Under the pieces are notes generated by a model. That model worked only from the letters and a program-made list of their open reading frames with translations. It did no database searches and was not told the origin of the DNA. DNA of 64,000 bases from Streptomyces violaceusniger Tu 4113 (GTDB lineage: Bacteria > Actinomycetota > Actinomycetes > Streptomycetales > Streptomycetaceae), in the NCBI RefSeq assembly GCF_000147815.2, contig NC_015957.1, positions 7,564,001 through 7,628,000 of the forward strand, written 5' to 3'. Of the stretch, positions 18,260-61,875 are shown piece after piece (position 1 is the stretch's first letter; each line of letters starts with the position of its first letter). The position numbers were made by a program, and so were the translations under genes.

Positions 18260-18301
18260 CGCTCCACCGTACGACGCGACCGGTCGGGCGATTCCGGCAA
18301 C

Positions 18302-18509
18302 GCCGGATGCGAGCCGTAAGGGCCCCGTACGAGCCGTAAGGCCCGGATGCGAGCCGTAAGGCGCCCGCGTACGAGCCGTAAGGCCCGGATGCGAGCCGTA
18401 AGGCGCCCGCGTACGAGCCGTAAGGCCCGGATGCGAGCCGTAAGGCGCCCGCGTACGAGCCGTAAGGCCCGGATGCGAGCCGTAAGGCGCCCGCGTACGA
18501 GCCTTACCG
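18302..18509. repeat. 42-bp tandem repeat array, about five units
   Basis: Units start at 18302 (40 bp), 18342, 18384, 18426 and 18468. Each contains two copies of GAGCCGTAAGG, once after CCCGGATGC and once after CGCCCGCGTAC. The middle three units appear identical and the last ends in a variant (GAGCCTTACC). Decayed copies of the same motif continue to 18596. There are no unique spacers, so it is not CRISPR. The array lies directly after the Ro gene stop and upstream of the BtuF-like gene. Confidence 0.92.
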
Positions 18510-18598
18510 GCCCCGCCACATACCCGTACGGCCCCCGCACGAGCCGTACGGTCCACGCCGCATCCATACCGCCCCCGCACGAGCCGTAAGGTCCGCAC

Positions 18599-20275
18599 CT
18601 ACACCGCCTCCCCCAGCGCCTCCCACGGCCAGGCGGCCCGGCCACCGCGGTCGCCGCTGCCACCCCGGTCGCCGCCACTGCCCCGGTCGCCCGCCGACAG
18701 CAGCCCGACCATCGTGAACAGCTTGTCGCTGAAGCCGCCGATCTCGTACCGGTTCGGCCGGCCGGTGTCGATGGACGTGGCCGCGTAGCCGGTGGTGTTG
18801 ACGCCGAACACCGGCACCCGCGCCGGGACGGCCTCCGAGACCGGTGCGGACCGGCCGCCGCGCGCAGGGGCGAACGCCTGCATATCCGAGACGATCACCA
18901 CCCGGTCGTGGCCGCGGTAGGCAGCCCGCAGCGCCGCCCCCGTCTCGGTGCCATGCCCGACCTCGCCGATCCGCGCGCAGAATCCCTCGATGTCGCGGAG
19001 CACCGAACCACCCGGGGTCAGCCGGTGGCCGAAGTGCCCGGAGGCGAAGCCGACCAGGTCCACCTGGCAGCCGCGGTGCGCGAGCGCGACCCCGAAGAGC
19101 GCGCCGATGTCCACATGGCGCACCTGGGAGCGGCCCGAGACCGGCGCCTGCATGGAGCCGGAGGTGTCCACGAGCACGAGGGTGCGGCCCGGCAGCGCCG
19201 GGACGGCCGCCGTGGCCGCGGTCAGCGCCCGGTCCAGGGCGTGGCCCCAGCGCAGGGACGGCGCGGCCCGGTACGCGGACAGGAAGCGATACGGGAACTG
19301 ACGGGAGCGGGCCACCTCCGCCGGGTCGGCCAGCCGTGCCGCGATCCGCTCGGCGACCGCGTCCGGCAGCCCGGCCTCGTCGAGGTTGCGCAGATTGCGC
19401 AGCAGCGCCATGTAGCCCATCGAGGGCAGCACGGCCTGCCAGGCCACGGCGTCCATCGGCCCCTGCAGCCAGCCCGCGAGCGCCTCCCAGGTCATCCCGG
19501 CGGTGCGGAGCGCTTCGGCGGCGTCCGGCCGCTCCAGCACGGCGCGGCGCTCCCACTGCGGCAGGGCGGTCAGCCGGGCGCGGGCGCGCAGGGCGCGCAG
19601 CGAGACCGGGGGCGCGGCGTCCCGGTGGTGGCGGCGGTCGATGGCGTGCCGGAACAGCTCGCTCTGCCACGGCTTTTCGGGATCAGGGGCGGCGTGCACC
19701 AGCTCCAGGACGTCGGCGAAGCGGAAGCCGTGGCTTTCGGTGTCGTGCTTGAGCAGCGAGCGCTCGGTGTAGAGGCGGCGGGCGGCGTCGGCGAGGCCGC
19801 GCTTGACCGGCTTGGGCAGGGCGCGGCCGTGCTGGGCGGTCCAGTGGGCGAGGAACTCACCGGGCTCGTCGGCGCGCAGACACGCGGCGTCGACGATGCG
19901 GCGGTTGCCGCCGTGCAGCCCGGCCGCGAGACGTGCCGCGACGGCCTCGGCGGCGGCGACCAGCGACGCGGTGCGCATCTGGGCCTCGCCGCGCAGCCAG
20001 GTGATGAACCGCGCGGTCCAGTCGGCGTCCTCGACGGCGACGGCGCGGACGAGGGTGCGGAAGCGGTCGTCGCGGTCGCCGGAGGACTCGTAGAAGGTCT
20101 GCTCGCCGACCATGTTCACCACGGCCAGCAGCACCAGCTCGGACTTGCTGTCGCGGGTGACGGCGGCGCCGCCCTCATAGGTGGTCGTGGTGGTCGTCGT
20201 GGCCGTGGTGGCCGTCGTGGCCGTGCTGGCCGTCGTGGCCGTGGCGCGCCGGATGGCGCGGTTGAACTTCGTCAT
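18599..20275 (-). CDS. rsr: Ro60/Rsr-like RNA-binding protein (TROVE plus vWA domain)
   Basis: A 558-residue orthologue of the Ro autoantigen. Residues about 30-340 form the TROVE HEAT-repeat ring (SKSELVLLAVVNMVGEQTFYES, then FITWLRGEAQMRTASLVAAAEAV). From about 360 there is a von Willebrand A domain with MIDAS residues DTSGSM at 370-375 and IVSDMQ later. Bacterial Ro proteins bind Y RNAs and tether them to exoribonucleases for stress-time rRNA and RNA turnover. The N-terminus carries a Thr/Ala-rich low-complexity tract encoded by GTC/GTG-type trinucleotide runs (20180-20245). A Gly/Asp-Arg repeat (GDRGSGGDRGG) precedes the C-terminus. The family is certain, and a candidate Y RNA lies upstream on the same strand. 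Confidence 0.9.
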   Translation of the reverse strand: MTKFNRAIRRATATTASTATTATTATTTTTTTYEGGAAVTRDSKSELVLLAVVNMVGEQTFYESSGDRDDRFRTLVRAVAVEDADWTARFITWLRGEAQMRTASLVAAAEAVAARLAAGLHGGNRRIVDAACLRADEPGEFLAHWTAQHGRALPKPVKRGLADAARRLYTERSLLKHDTESHGFRFADVLELVHAAPDPEKPWQSELFRHAIDRRHHRDAAPPVSLRALRARARLTALPQWERRAVLERPDAAEALRTAGMTWEALAGWLQGPMDAVAWQAVLPSMGYMALLRNLRNLDEAGLPDAVAERIAARLADPAEVARSRQFPYRFLSAYRAAPSLRWGHALDRALTAATAAVPALPGRTLVLVDTSGSMQAPVSGRSQVRHVDIGALFGVALAHRGCQVDLVGFASGHFGHRLTPGGSVLRDIEGFCARIGEVGHGTETGAALRAAYRGHDRVVIVSDMQAFAPARGGRSAPVSEAVPARVPVFGVNTTGYAATSIDTGRPNRYEIGGFSDKLFTMVGLLSAGDRGSGGDRGGSGDRGGRAAWPWEALGEAV

Positions 20276-20421
20276 GCGGTCATGCCTCTCCCCCGAGTGG
20301 GCATAGGAGGGAGGCGGCGCACCGGTGCGTCGGCAGCGCCTGAGGTCGAAAGTGGGCGGCGGACTGTTCTGGGAAAGGAAGTAACCGCGGCCCGCGCACC
20401 AGGCGCTCCGATGCCATGCGC

Positions 20422-20540
20422 GCGCCTCCCGAGATCAGAGTCGACGACGGTACGTTTCCCACCCCGCGTCAGCGGGGTGTTTCAGGAATCGAACCCAAAT
20501 CGACCGAAGTAACCGTCGTCTTCGCACCGGGAGGTGCGTT
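20422..20540 (-). ncRNA. candidate Y RNA (YrlA-like, with tRNA-type T-arm)
   Basis: Read on the minus strand this segment folds into the Y RNA architecture. The terminal stem GCACCTCCCG (20537-20528) pairs with CGGGAGGCGC (20431-20422) with one mismatch. An asymmetric internal loop includes GCGAA on the 5' side. The inner stem GACGACGGT (20520-20512) pairs exactly with ACCGTCGTC (20451-20443). Beyond it lies a T-arm mimic, stem TTGGG/CCTGA around the 7-nt loop TTCGATT (20498-20482), and a hairpin ACCCCGC-TGAC-GCGGGGT (20478-20461). A possible -10 hexamer TACTGT (20556-20551) would start the RNA near 20543. It lies 147 bp upstream of the Ro gene in the same orientation, the usual place for Y RNA genes in bacteria. 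Expression is inferred, not shown. Confidence 0.65.
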
Positions 20541-20613
20541 CACGGATACGACAGTAGGGGCCGGTTCCTCGGCCGTCATCCGGTTTTCTCCGCCCCGAGG
20601 ACCGCAGACCACA

Positions 20614-20651
20614 ACACCGCGGCCCGGAGCGGGTGCTCCGGGCCGCGGTGT
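20614..20651 (-). terminator. 17-bp perfect hairpin after the betaine transporter operon
   Basis: Arms 20614-20630 and 20635-20651 pair without a mismatch around GGGT. The hairpin is 45 bp past the stop codon of the permease/binding-protein gene (20696), so it most likely ends that minus-strand operon and insulates the Y RNA/Ro unit. Confidence 0.8.
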
Positions 20652-20695
20652 GTGCGTGGTGCCTGCGGTGGGTCAGCAGACCACCTGGTGGCAGG

Positions 20696-23314
20696 TCAGG
20701 GAGCCACCGGCGCCATCTTGTCGACGATGCCGGGATGGGCGTCCATCCACTTCTGGGCGCCCTCCTCCTCGTTGCCCTTACCGGCGTCCTGGATGGCCGC
20801 CTCCAGGCTTCCGAGTTCCTTCTCGGTCATGTGCCACTTCTTCAGCCACCCGTTGAACTCGGGGAACTTCTTCGGGAAGGACTTGTTGGCGAGCGTGTGG
20901 AGCTGGTTGCTGGCCCCGAACGCCTTCTTCGGGTCGGCCAGCTTGGTGAGCTTGTACTTGCTGTACGCCCAGTGCGGGGACCACAGAACGACGGCCACCG
21001 GCTCCTTCTTGGCGTACGAGCGCTCCAGCTCGGCCAGCATCGCCGGCGAGGAGCCGTCACTGACCTTGTACTCCTTGTCCAGACCGTACTCCTTGAGCAC
21101 ATTGCCCTTCAGGAGCTTCATCTCGCCGGTCCCGGGCTCGATACCGATGATCTTGCCGCCGAAGGTGCTGGCCTTCCCCTTGAGGTCGGCGAGCGACTTC
21201 ACGTCCTTGACGTAGGACGGCACGGCGATCTCCAGGGAGGTCTTGTCGTACCACGACCCGACGTCGACCAGGTTCTTCTTGTATCTGTCCCAGTACTGTT
21301 TCTGGGCGACCGGTAGCCAGCCGTCGAACTCGACATCGACCTGTCCGGTGCTCATTCCGGTGAACATGGAGCCGACGTCGTACTGCTTGATCGACGGCTT
21401 GTAGCCACGCCGCTCGAGGACGTTCTTCCACAGGTAGGTGGTGGCGATGTCCTCGTCCCACGGGAAGTAGCCGATCTTCGGCGCGGCTCCGGCGTCCTTG
21501 CCCTTCTGCTCGCCGCCGGGCACCGGGGCCAGCTTGTTGACCAGGCTGGGGTTCTTCTTGAGCCAGGCGCGCACGCCCTCCTGCTCCTTGCCCTTACCGG
21601 CGTCCTGGATCGCCGCCTCCAGGCTGGTGAGCTGCTTCTCGTCCAGCTTGAAGTCCTTCATCCACTTGGCGACCTGCGGGTTGTCCTTGGAGAAGCCCTT
21701 GCGCGCCAGGGAGTCGATGCGGTCGCCCTTGCCGAAGGCGCCCTTGGTGTCCTTCAGCTTGATGAGGTCGTACTTGTTGTACGCCCAGTGCGGGGACCAC
21801 AAGGTGACCGCGATCGGCTCCTTCTTGGCGTAGGAGCGGTCGAGCTGGGAGAGCATGGCCGCGGTGGAGCCCTTGACGAGGGAGAAGTTCTTGTTCAGGC
21901 CGTAGCCCGGCATGACCTTGTCCTGCATCAGCTTCATCTCACCGGCACCGGGCTCGATGCCGACGATCTTCTTCTTGAAGGTGCCGGACTTCTTCTCCAG
22001 GTCCTCCAGGGTCTTGACGCCCTTGACGTACGAGGGCACCGCGACCTCCAGGGAGGTGGGGCCGTACCAGGAGCCGAGGTTCTCCAGCTTGTCCTTGTAC
22101 TTCGCCCAGTACGAGGCGTGGGTGGTGGGCAGCCAGGAGTCCGTCTCGAAGTCGATGTTGCCCGCTGCCATACCGGTGTACAGCGCTCCGACGTCGTACG
22201 ACTGGACCTTGGGCTTGAAGCCGCGCTGCTCCAGGAGCTCCTTCCACAAGAAGGTGGAGGCGACGCCCTCGTCCCAGTTGATGTAGCCGATGTTGACCGA
22301 CTGGCCCTTGCCGACGTTGGCAGAAACCTCGGGTCCCTTGTCGTCGCCGCCGAACATGCTCATGCCACCGGCGACGAGGGCCAGGACGACGACGCCGACC
22401 ATGGCGACGGAGGTCGCGGGGCGCCAGTGCAGCACCTTGAGGCCGCTGAGCGCCTTGGCCTTCTCCTTGGCCAGCGCACGGCGGGCCAGCGGGGAGACGC
22501 GCTGGTTGAGCGCGCTGGTCATCCGGTCCAGGTACATGGCCAGGATGACGACCGCGATACCGCCCTCGAAGCCCATGGCGACGTCGACGGAGCTGATCGC
22601 CTGGAAGACGGTGGAGCCCAGGCCCTCGGCGCCGACCATGCCGGCGATGACGACCATGGACAGCGCCAGCATGATCACCTGGTTGACGCCCGCCATGATG
22701 GTGGGCAGGGCCAGCGGGAACTGGACGCGCAGGAGAGTGCGGCGCGGATGGGTGCCGAAGGCGTCTGCCGCCTCGACCAGCTCCGCATCCACCTGCCGGA
22801 TGCCCAGTTCCGTCATGCGGACGCCCGGGGGCATCGAGAAGATGACGGTGGCGACGACGCCGGGGACCACCCCGAGGCCGAAGAAGAAGATGCCGGGGAT
22901 CAGGTAGACGAAGGCGGGCATCGTCTGCATGAAGTCCAGCACCGGGCGGATCACGGCGCTCACCGCGCGGTTGCGCGAGGCCCAGATGCCCAGCGGCACC
23001 GCGAACACGATGGTGATCACACCGGCGACCAGCACCAGTGCGAGGGTGTTCATCGCCTCGCCCCACAACTCGATCGAGTCGATGAGGGCGAATCCCAGGA
23101 AGGCGAGCACGGCGGGCAGCAGCCCGCGCAGCCACCAGGCGAGCAGCGCCAGGATGCCCGCGAACAGCAGCGGCTCGGGGCCGCTGAGCACGGTGTTCAG
23201 CCCGTCGTACATGCCCTGGACGACGCTGGAGATGAAATCGAAGAGCCAGCTCAGATTGTCTCGGAGCCAGTTGACGCCGGAGTTGATCCAGTCGCCGAGC
23301 TGAAGCCTAGGCAC
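20696..23314 (-). CDS. glycine betaine/proline-type ABC permease fused to two substrate-binding domains
   Basis: An 872-residue membrane protein. Residues 1-330 are a ProW/OpuAB-type permease with several hydrophobic spans and the EAA-like loop (VEAADAFGTHPRRTLLRVQFPLALPTIMAGVNQ). After a last transmembrane helix near 315-335 come two tandem OpuAC-type binding domains, about 345-600 and 610-872. Each contains YVKGVKTLEDL / YVKDVKSLADL, GIEPGAGEMK / GIEPGTGEMK, SYAKKEPIAVTLWSPHWAY / SYAKKEPVAVVLWSPHWAY and EAAIQDAGKG. The conserved Trp-rich stretches match betaine-binding aromatic cages. The ATG overlaps the end of the ATPase gene by 8 bp, implying coupled translation. Fused permease/binding proteins are known (OpuABC); a tandem pair of binding domains is less usual. 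Confidence 0.9.
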   Translation of the reverse strand: MPRLQLGDWINSGVNWLRDNLSWLFDFISSVVQGMYDGLNTVLSGPEPLLFAGILALLAWWLRGLLPAVLAFLGFALIDSIELWGEAMNTLALVLVAGVITIVFAVPLGIWASRNRAVSAVIRPVLDFMQTMPAFVYLIPGIFFFGLGVVPGVVATVIFSMPPGVRMTELGIRQVDAELVEAADAFGTHPRRTLLRVQFPLALPTIMAGVNQVIMLALSMVVIAGMVGAEGLGSTVFQAISSVDVAMGFEGGIAVVILAMYLDRMTSALNQRVSPLARRALAKEKAKALSGLKVLHWRPATSVAMVGVVVLALVAGGMSMFGGDDKGPEVSANVGKGQSVNIGYINWDEGVASTFLWKELLEQRGFKPKVQSYDVGALYTGMAAGNIDFETDSWLPTTHASYWAKYKDKLENLGSWYGPTSLEVAVPSYVKGVKTLEDLEKKSGTFKKKIVGIEPGAGEMKLMQDKVMPGYGLNKNFSLVKGSTAAMLSQLDRSYAKKEPIAVTLWSPHWAYNKYDLIKLKDTKGAFGKGDRIDSLARKGFSKDNPQVAKWMKDFKLDEKQLTSLEAAIQDAGKGKEQEGVRAWLKKNPSLVNKLAPVPGGEQKGKDAGAAPKIGYFPWDEDIATTYLWKNVLERRGYKPSIKQYDVGSMFTGMSTGQVDVEFDGWLPVAQKQYWDRYKKNLVDVGSWYDKTSLEIAVPSYVKDVKSLADLKGKASTFGGKIIGIEPGTGEMKLLKGNVLKEYGLDKEYKVSDGSSPAMLAELERSYAKKEPVAVVLWSPHWAYSKYKLTKLADPKKAFGASNQLHTLANKSFPKKFPEFNGWLKKWHMTEKELGSLEAAIQDAGKGNEEEGAQKWMDAHPGIVDKMAPVAP

Positions 23315-32104: not shown

Positions 32105-32251
32105 CGTATCTACGAGCCTACCGGCCACCTCCGACAGCGCACGCGATCTTTATCGGGCTTTGTTCGGCCGGCCGGGGCTTTGTTCGGCGCGCCCGGCCGG
32201 GACGGGGCCGTGGACGGCTGCCCCGCCCGTGCCAGGAGCGGCTACGGACGG

Positions 32252-33217
32252 CTAGGTGACGTCGTCGTAGCCGTTGCGCCGGGGGGTGCCGCCGGAGTCG
32301 TCCCCGTCGGTGAGCTCCGGCCTGGCGCTGGGCGCGGCGACGGCCTCGGGGGTCAGATCCAGCTCGGACGCCTCGTCGTCGCTCAGGCCGAAGTCCGGGT
32401 CGGCGGCCCGGCGGCGCGCCTTGCGCCGGTCGTTGGCCAGGGCGACACCGACGGCACCGAAGTAGAGCACGGTGACCGGCCCGGCCAGGGCGAACATGCC
32501 GATCGGGTCGGTGCTGGGGGTGGCGATGGCGCCGAAGACCGTGATGCCCATGATCATGGCGCGCCACCAGCCGAGCATCCGTCGTCCGGTGAGGATGCCG
32601 GTGAAGTTCAGCAGGATCAGCAGCAGCGGAAGCTCGAAGGCGAGCCCGAAGACGAGGACCATCCGGGACAGCAGATCGAGGAAGTCGTCCAGCGGAAGGA
32701 GGTTGTTGGCCCCCTCCGGGGTGAAGCCGATAAGGACCTTGGCGCTGGTCGGAAGGATCATGTACGCGAAGTACGCGCCGGCGACGAAGAGCGGTACGCC
32801 GAGCCCGACGAAGAACAGGCCGTACTTCTTCTCGTTGCGGTGCAGCCCGGGCGCGAGGAAGGCCCAGAGCTGGTAGAGCCAGATCGGGGTGGCGACCACC
32901 AGCCCGGTCGTGAAGGAGACCTTCAGCATGATCGTGAACGGCGACAGCAGACCGTTCACGGTGAAGTAGGCGCAGTCGTGCCCCTTACTCCCCTGGCCCG
33001 AGAGATCGGACAGCGAGACCCCGCCACAGCCGACGGCGTCCAGCACCGGCTGCATCAGGAATTTGGCGATGTCCATGTAGAAGAACATCGCGACGATCGT
33101 GACCACGCAGATCGCCAGGACCGACTTGAGCAACCGGTTGCGCAGCTCACGCAGGTGCTCAGCCAGGGGCATCCGCCCCTCGGGGTCCTTCTCCTTCGTG
33201 CGGGCAGACTTGAGCAA
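32252..33217 (-). CDS. tatC: Sec-independent translocase subunit TatC
   Basis: A 321-residue membrane protein with six hydrophobic spans and the TatC N-terminal sequence MPLAEHLRELRNRLLKS that recognises twin-arginine signal peptides, plus FxxPGLHRNEKKY in the first cytoplasmic loop. The acidic C-terminal extension of about 60 residues (DFGLSDDEASELDLTPE) is common in actinobacteria. It forms the export receptor with TatA encoded immediately upstream, and the amidohydrolase at 12295 carries a matching Tat signal. Confidence 0.95.
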   Translation of the reverse strand: MLKSARTKEKDPEGRMPLAEHLRELRNRLLKSVLAICVVTIVAMFFYMDIAKFLMQPVLDAVGCGGVSLSDLSGQGSKGHDCAYFTVNGLLSPFTIMLKVSFTTGLVVATPIWLYQLWAFLAPGLHRNEKKYGLFFVGLGVPLFVAGAYFAYMILPTSAKVLIGFTPEGANNLLPLDDFLDLLSRMVLVFGLAFELPLLLILLNFTGILTGRRMLGWWRAMIMGITVFGAIATPSTDPIGMFALAGPVTVLYFGAVGVALANDRRKARRRAADPDFGLSDDEASELDLTPEAVAAPSARPELTDGDDSGGTPRRNGYDDVT

Positions 33218-58168: not shown

Positions 58169-61675
<3,507 letters not shown>

Positions 61676-61875
61676 GGATGTGCTCCCTGGAGTGCGACGG
61701 CTGTCGGCTTTGCGCCCTCCCTGGGGACGGCGCACCACGCCAGGGTAGCTGCCAGTGGTCATTTGACGATGGTCGTTCCATCAGCCGGGATGGGGCGCGG
61801 CCGGCCGGCCCTCGGCGGGCCCTTGATCGTCGACACATGGCCTTCCGGTACCGCGGGGTCGACATGGACCGATAG

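Follow-up and report, generated by a model that had tools for sequence, protein, structure and literature searches.

Two tandem, very probable Y RNAs, one with a T-arm-only tRNA mimic, upstream of the Ro60 orthologue gene of Streptomyces violaceusniger Tu 4113

In Deinococcus radiodurans and in Salmonella, access to the Ro ring is gated by the Y RNA that the Ro protein binds, and the YrlA family (RF02553) is also present in Mycobacterium smegmatis. Chen et al. 2014 (RNA 20:1715) reportedly describe over 250 species with Y RNAs, each species having at least one that carries a tRNA-like domain. No title among the literature matches listed concerned Streptomyces Y RNAs; Chen et al. 2014, which lay outside that scope, may well include actinobacterial examples. 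As set out in sections of PMC8394870 and PMC7790460, bacterial Y RNAs bind the Ro ring through their stem, and their cap forms the effector end. YrlA is described in sections of PMC8394870 as a stem joined to a domain with D-, T- and acceptor-like parts, which is modified by DusA and TruB and binds PNPase. Passages of PMC7790460 and PMC8394870 give the D. radiodurans Y RNA a tethering role in a complex with Rsr and PNPase (RYPER), and a passage of PMC7790460 names the Salmonella operon rsr-yrlBA-rtcBA.

Here, a 64,000-nucleotide stretch of the S. violaceusniger Tu 4113 genome (hereafter the window) was analyzed around its ro gene, following an earlier note that had placed a single candidate Y RNA (here Y1) directly upstream of that gene. 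The gene, a second element (Y2) and the parts of Y1 lie at the following window positions:

18599-20275, minus strand: Ro60/Rsr orthologue with TROVE and vWA domains, 558 aa (TROVE match, AlphaFold model, PDB matches)
20331-20411, minus strand: Y2, very probable short Y RNA without a tRNA-like arm (model R1, 69.8 bits, E 2.5e-14)
20420-20539, minus strand: Y1, very probable T-arm-type Y RNA and the candidate of the earlier note (model R1, 70.3 bits, E 1.9e-14 in the window)
20422-20432, minus strand: 3' strand of the Y1 terminal (lower) stem (structure drawing)
20443-20451, minus strand: 3' strand of the Y1 inner stem (structure drawing, pair counts)
20460-20479, minus strand: GC hairpin of Y1 replacing acceptor and D arms (both-side changes at 4 of 8 pairs)
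20481-20499, minus strand: tRNA-like T-arm of Y1, loop TTCGATT at 20487-20493 (structure, T-loop conservation, shuffled-cap test)
20512-20520, minus strand: 5' strand of the Y1 inner stem (structure drawing, pair counts)
20527-20537, minus strand: 5' strand of the Y1 terminal (lower) stem (structure drawing)

The protein at 18599-20275, which the note had named as the Ro partner, proved to be a real orthologue. It scored 52.3 bits against TROVE (cut-off 23), its AlphaFold model (28 sequences) had a pLDDT of 81, and all 13 PDB fold matches at E <= 0.001 were Ro/TROVE structures, including 9kop, 9l5y, 2nvo and 1yvp (E 1.3e-14 to 1.1e-11), of which 2nvo is D. radiodurans Rsr and 1yvp a Ro-RNA complex. 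Residues D370, S372, S374, T443 and D464, presumably the metal-ion site (DxSxS, T, D), were invariant across the 28 sequences of alignment A6 (L064, L071, L075 and L093 dropped), and both the Ro fold and the ion-site residues are intact. The N-terminus of the window Ro contains an Ala/Thr-rich run (TATTASTATTATTATTTTTT, 20177-20248, minus strand), of which L003 and L004 have a shorter version, and short direct repeats around GAGCCGTAAGG were seen by eye at 18300-18600, just downstream of ro. Elsewhere in the window, Rfam identified a Streptomyces-metH RNA at 61673-61793 (minus strand, 101.6 bits).

The terminal stem of Y1 (20537-20527/20432-20422) spans 11 positions with one A.C mismatch and a closing G.U, and is followed by an inner stem of nine exact pairs (20520-20512/20451-20443), a T-arm stem of six pairs, two of them G.U, with a 7-nt loop (20499-20494/20486-20481), and a GC hairpin of eight pairs (20479-20472/20467-20460). 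The mismatch, the 9-bp exact inner stem, the loop TTCGATT and the hairpin are as the earlier note had drawn them, whereas it gave 10 bp for the terminal stem and 5 bp for the T-arm stem. Folding, which the note had suggested as a check, reproduced the drawing with a z of -4.5, ahead of 200/200 dinucleotide shuffles (131 nt, minus strand); the complement of the region gave a z of -5.7. The raw folding energy of Y1 was ordinary for DNA this rich in GC, ranking 89th among 640 sampled 120-nt stretches, so the element has to be judged by comparing it with relatives. The Y1 lower stem opened in a joint fold of Y1 with Y2 and the ro leader, and formation of the Y fold may therefore depend on processing or on Ro. 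A hairpin competing with this stem (GCACC-UCCC-GGUGC) rose from a probability of 0 for Y1 alone to ~1.0 with the leader included and, as a modeled structure, is counted within the strand exchange considered below.

Orthologues of Y1 were compared within the Ro clade of the window, which comprises 17 rows (SH-aLRT 100) of a quick tree of 66 of the 80 surveyed ro loci, seven named and seven Streptomyces loci being left out; rows L007, L015, L016 and L024 of this tree are apparently misframed and form a false branch that leaves the window clade unaffected. Pair counts (alignment A3) covered 16 of the 17 clade loci, excluding L046, which is without Y1. Using fixed-structure pair counts, the covariation score of Y1 was 0.126 compared to 0.074 after shuffling, with 0/500 shuffles as high, and 8 of 34 pairs had changed on both sides, these changes sitting in the inner stem, T-arm and hairpin. 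The lower stem is near-constant within the clade (no pair changed on both sides), and its covariation comes from the wider element set. The structure paired at 91% versus 42-50% for slid structures, although this comparison favours the true structure as drawn on the window's own row. In all 16 loci the T-loop reads TTCRAWT, and all 16 Y1 caps form at least 4 of 5 T-arm pairs (shuffled caps, mean 0.09 of 16). The cross-Streptomyces alignment proposed earlier therefore revealed both compensatory changes and the expected conserved T-arm loop. In S. endocoffeicus L046 (about 3860), Y1 and the promoter-like pair described below are missing and Y2 and ro are kept, reflecting either natural loss of Y1 or an assembly fault.

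Sequence and structure comparisons support Y2, which the earlier note had overlooked, as a second tandem Y RNA. It starts 8 nt past Y1 on the minus strand and folds with a z of -2.7 (2/200 shuffles as good), and a second element is found in 15 of the 16 Y1-bearing clade loci. Model R1 was built from 41 of 53 listed short elements, with Y2 as a training row and Y1 not; in the 11.1-Mb genome it gave two matches at E <= 1 (150 loose-screen candidates scored), namely Y1 and Y2. Model R2 scores Y1 at 134 bits, having been trained on it. A 5'-core pattern occurred at 16 genome sites (22 with a reversed control), and R1 scored none of the 14 other sites. R1 also matched weakly at 32218-32291 (21 bits), which was taken as chance. 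Outside the window, a DNA similarity search with Y1 matched only the shared 5' arm, which led to recognition of the array. Ahead of Y1 lies a promoter-like pair, ATGACG-N17-TACTGT:

20574-20579, minus strand: -35-like ATGACG (sequence)
20551-20556, minus strand: -10-like TACTGT (promoter-like pair in 15/16 loci)

The pattern TGACG-N15-20-TANNNT was present in 15 of 16 clade loci, 17-21 nt ahead of the detected lower stem, compared to a shuffled mean of 0.014/16, a statistic computed on related loci with kinship ignored. The possible -10 element that had been pointed out earlier is the TACTGT at 20556-20551 and so belongs to a pair that is widely kept. An ECF-sigma promoter was dropped on spacing, by eye.

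The region upstream of ro was then surveyed in 80 loci, of which 30 were from Streptomyces (the window included, and kept from matches in 84/150 genomes) and 50 were named actinobacterial loci. With a pairing-based detector, 79 of the 80 proved to carry one or more Y-like elements: 14 loci hold a single element, 40 hold two, 22 hold three and 3 hold four, and L082 holds none. Some of the 172 elements detected in total may be false. Array elements have in common a 5' strand ..CCC-GGTGCG..TACTTC and a 3' strand ..GATCTCGGG.., with variation, and tandem copies share the stem and differ in the cap. As a guard against circularity, 157 elements were picked with a sequence motif alone, ignoring pairing. 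Their 5-nt lower stem nevertheless paired 5/5 in 139 elements, versus 41 ± 4.6 with shuffled partners, using 23 different sequence combinations. Among the short Y RNAs (alignment A4), one inner-stem position (columns 24/63) was hypervariable and often mismatched, and a G.U ended the lower stem in 40/41 (columns 13/79).

Across 150 Streptomyces genomes, R1 matched 79 and TROVE 80, with both in 77, TROVE only in three, the Y RNA only in two and neither in 68 (Fisher p 2.6e-36); this value ignores kinship, comes from genome lists matched up by eye, and is based on a model whose 41 training elements were partly taken from the same genomes. Among the TROVE-only genomes, full-tRNA-type Y RNAs precede ro in G044 and G058 (by eye) and other sequence lies ahead of the ro start in G080, and in both Y-only genomes (G065, G124) a ro fragment lies beside the Y RNA. 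A further model, R3, matched 74 of the 150 genomes, none of them without ro or a ro fragment. Y-like RNA presence follows ro. On comparative evidence, Y1 is an RNA gene that is conserved, covaries and goes with ro in location as well as in presence or absence. The broad features of Y RNAs were observed for Y1 and Y2: they sit beside ro on the same strand, have a two-part stem with an internal loop and compensatory change, and co-occur with ro. Both are very probably Y RNAs, and covariation, location and co-occurrence speak for the earlier reading of Y1 as the RNA partner of this Ro protein, to which it would bind.

Not all Y-like RNAs stand next to ro. Of the R1 matches located elsewhere, 14 were fetched, and in ten Streptomyces loci (L098-L105, L107, L109; element at about position 2000 each) a PriA-like ORF follows, with a MetK-like ORF ahead of the Y-like RNA in eight of these ten. 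Both ORFs are presumed names taken from protein motifs; for PriA there is further support in the resemblance to the TIGR00595 match of the same genome, which itself falls below the model cut-off. Four of the ten sites hold pairs by eye, the second member with a tRNA-like cap. In L106 and L108 the Y-like RNA is distant from ro and beside a gene that we take to be short-chain-dehydrogenase-like, and L097 and L110 hold orphan Y-like RNAs at two other sites. A Ro match was present in 56 phage records, of which four were fetched (L137-L140: Streptomyces phages GiJojo, pSt2308 and Quantum, and Arthrobacter phage Atuin), and all four have an R1 match near the Ro gene (best E per phage 2.8e-8 to 0.028). 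These phage-borne arrays are like the window in having Y-like elements near the Ro gene; unlike those of the window, the elements have diverged stems and in three of the four phages lie inside tRNA clusters.

The extent of tRNA mimicry differs between caps. A D-arm motif is present in 79 of the 172 elements, all 79 of which also form a T-arm of at least 4/5 pairs, and 31 of the 93 elements without the motif have a T-arm. A D-arm-motif cap occurs at 26 of the 27 loci in the main Streptomyces set; it is a circularly permuted tRNA mimic composed of a T-arm, a closed acceptor and a D-arm. In the Ro clade of the window, 16 of 17 rows are T-arm only and one has lost Y1, according to tree cap labels from the pairing-based detector, which misses some elements; by eye, L062 (labelled T-arm) and L058 (labelled none) each have a further tRNA-like RNA. 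The T-arm-plus-hairpin type stands beside a full-mimic RNA in Actinomadura L059, L062 and L078 (by eye). The last Y RNA of the array in L005, L008, L009, L016, L019, L021, L022, L027 and L028 has a D-arm TGTGGCGGAA...GAAGACGCGC, which we take to resemble that of tRNA-Leu, unlike the usual GTAGCTCA type. The Rfam YrlA model matched 9 of 13 loci tried (best E 1.1e-9), none reaching the gathering score (relatives at most 54.9 bits versus 69), and six further named loci and the four phage loci likewise gave no match at gathering. The non-matchers (the window, L003, L004 and L030) are without the full mimic. The YrlA covariance search proposed in the note returned no match to Y1 at E up to 5, and searching 20250-20750 with Rfam yielded 11 sub-threshold matches, none to YrlA and all at 20581-20719, outside Y1.

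It is extremely unlikely that Y1 is a full YrlA RNA with an intact but divergent tRNA domain. RNAs at the same place in other Streptomyces do match RF02553 and have all three parts of the mimic (T-arm, D-arm and closed acceptor), but no D-arm motif was found in any ro-locus Y RNA of the 17 clade loci, and 4 of the 16 Y1 caps (36-39 nt) are too short to hold a D-arm. We rejected this reading on sequence, since the D-arm and acceptor mimic is absent from Y1 and Y2. The tRNA mimicry of Y1 that was pointed out earlier is confined to the T-arm (T-loop in 16/16 loci), the D-arm and acceptor both being absent in the clade, and because Y1 lacks these features and a match to the Rfam model it was not filed as YrlA; it is best classed among Y RNAs broadly defined, as a T-arm-only variant. 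The position of Y1 within the ro leader and the tRNA-like letters of its T-arm would also fit a structured leader or attenuator, or the remnant of a tRNA gene, with no role as a Ro partner. This is very unlikely, as no cloverleaf was found in Y1 by ARAGORN or Rfam, the tandem copies combine the same stem with different caps, and Y-like RNAs are also found far from ro and, among the 150 genomes, only where ro or a ro fragment is present.

A third alternative, that the Y array also, or mainly, serves as a cis switch on ro translation, is a tentative one that we consider somewhat improbable. It involves three modeled features:

20415-20430, minus strand: Y1 3' arm and flank, predicted to pair with the ro leader (duplex -29.8 kcal/mol, 0/60 shuffles)
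20308-20323, minus strand: predicted ro leader anti-arm GGTGCGCCGCCTCCCT (duplex with Y1 3' arm)
20285-20294, minus strand: GGGGGAGAGG, Shine-Dalgarno-like, ahead of ro (sequence; accessibility modeled)

Here, the 3' arm of a CTCCC-type Y RNA (in the window Y1, elsewhere in Streptomyces mostly the short Y RNA, among loci read) would pair with either its own 5' arm or the anti-arm, which otherwise covers the ro ribosome site. Ro binding to the folded Y RNA, or removal of the leader, would let the anti-arm close ro, and scarce Ro would leave it open. In 24 main-clade loci the arm-leader duplex averaged -24.3 kcal/mol versus -15.9 for shuffled leaders (sd of mean 0.41), with p<=0.05 in 20/24 and a mean beyond all 60 leader swaps (best -23.5). 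In 16 window-clade loci it averaged -25.5 versus -19.5 kcal/mol (0.54), with p<=0.05 in 11/16, but their own leader was not clearly better than swaps (best -25.6). No such pairing was seen for Y2 (-16.8 versus -18.2, 15 loci) or the first tRNA-type Y RNA (-6.7 versus -8.0, 18 loci). The modeled unpaired probability of the ro ribosome site in the main clade was 0.11 for the leader alone, 0.45 with the real array and 0.15 with shuffled arrays, the real array being higher in 21/23 loci (p 1.7e-6; the 23 of 27 loci that have both a G-run and a short Y RNA). The corresponding window-clade values were 0.13, 0.28 and 0.14, higher in 13/15 loci (p 0.012; 15 of 16 loci, with L057 and the Y1-less L046 out). 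All of these p-values are optimistic because the loci are related. This support is purely thermodynamic, and the anti-arm may instead be what is left of a degenerate Y 5' arm. An ungapped 12-nt arm-leader test was positive in the main clade (19/23), whereas it reached p<=0.05 in only 2/17 window-clade loci and gave no clear excess for the window clade pooled with other genera; the 11/16 above became significant when bulges were allowed. In G068 and in S. coffeae, a change that breaks the Y1 stem (columns 6/132) is answered by GTCTCC in the leader; however, GTCTCC also stands in S. albus subsp. chlorinus L052, whose arm is unchanged, which weakens that case. In silico, the CTCCC-type 3' arm opens the ro ribosome site, with a weaker effect in the window's clade, a possible strand-exchange switch, and the Y RNA pair may also help control the amount of ring protein.

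Overall, the locus as a whole is best explained by tandem Y RNAs ahead of ro, with a stem for Ro and a cap as effector, a reading in which we have high confidence. Y1 and Y2 would be transcribed ahead of ro/rsr, and probably together with it given the 8-nt spacing from Y1 to Y2, and could then be processed out of the ro leader. The two-part stem (5' GGUGCG, UACUUC; 3' GAUCUCGGG-like) would be expected to attach to the outer face of the Ro ring and present the cap as an effector module, which is a T-arm beside a GC hairpin in Y1 and a small loop in Y2. By analogy with D. radiodurans and Salmonella, the Ro-bound Y RNA would gate access to the ring, and its tRNA-like part could serve as a tether for PNPase and as a substrate of TruB, for which a T-arm alone is enough in principle. 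The stripping to a T-arm across a whole Ro clade, with sister lineages that have the full mimic, makes it testable which tRNA part is needed. A self-sensing switch, in which one Y RNA per array (Y1 in the window) exchanges its 3' arm and free Ro lowers its own synthesis, would together with remote Y RNAs (e.g., before priA) and T-arm-only caps form a Ro regulon of exchangeable Y RNAs, an idea we find rather doubtful. The coupling of Y RNA and ro, the remote copies and the possible feedback on ro are open to experiment in Streptomyces, a soil genus with good genetics.

Compared with known systems, the ro locus of the window is unlike Salmonella rsr-yrlBA-rtcBA in that ro is not beside rtcB (no RtcB linkage was found, the one RtcB match of the genome being about 7 Mb from the window's ro), and like it in having more than one probable Y RNA per ro locus. 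The likeness of Y1 to the Y RNA of RYPER would be one of described role, as a Ro-partner RNA. Salmonella YrlA (RF02553) and Y1 both lie beside ro and have a long end-paired stem with a T-arm in the cap; in Y1 this cap consists of the T-arm and a GC hairpin only, has no Rfam match, and is carried on a stem of the actinobacterial consensus.
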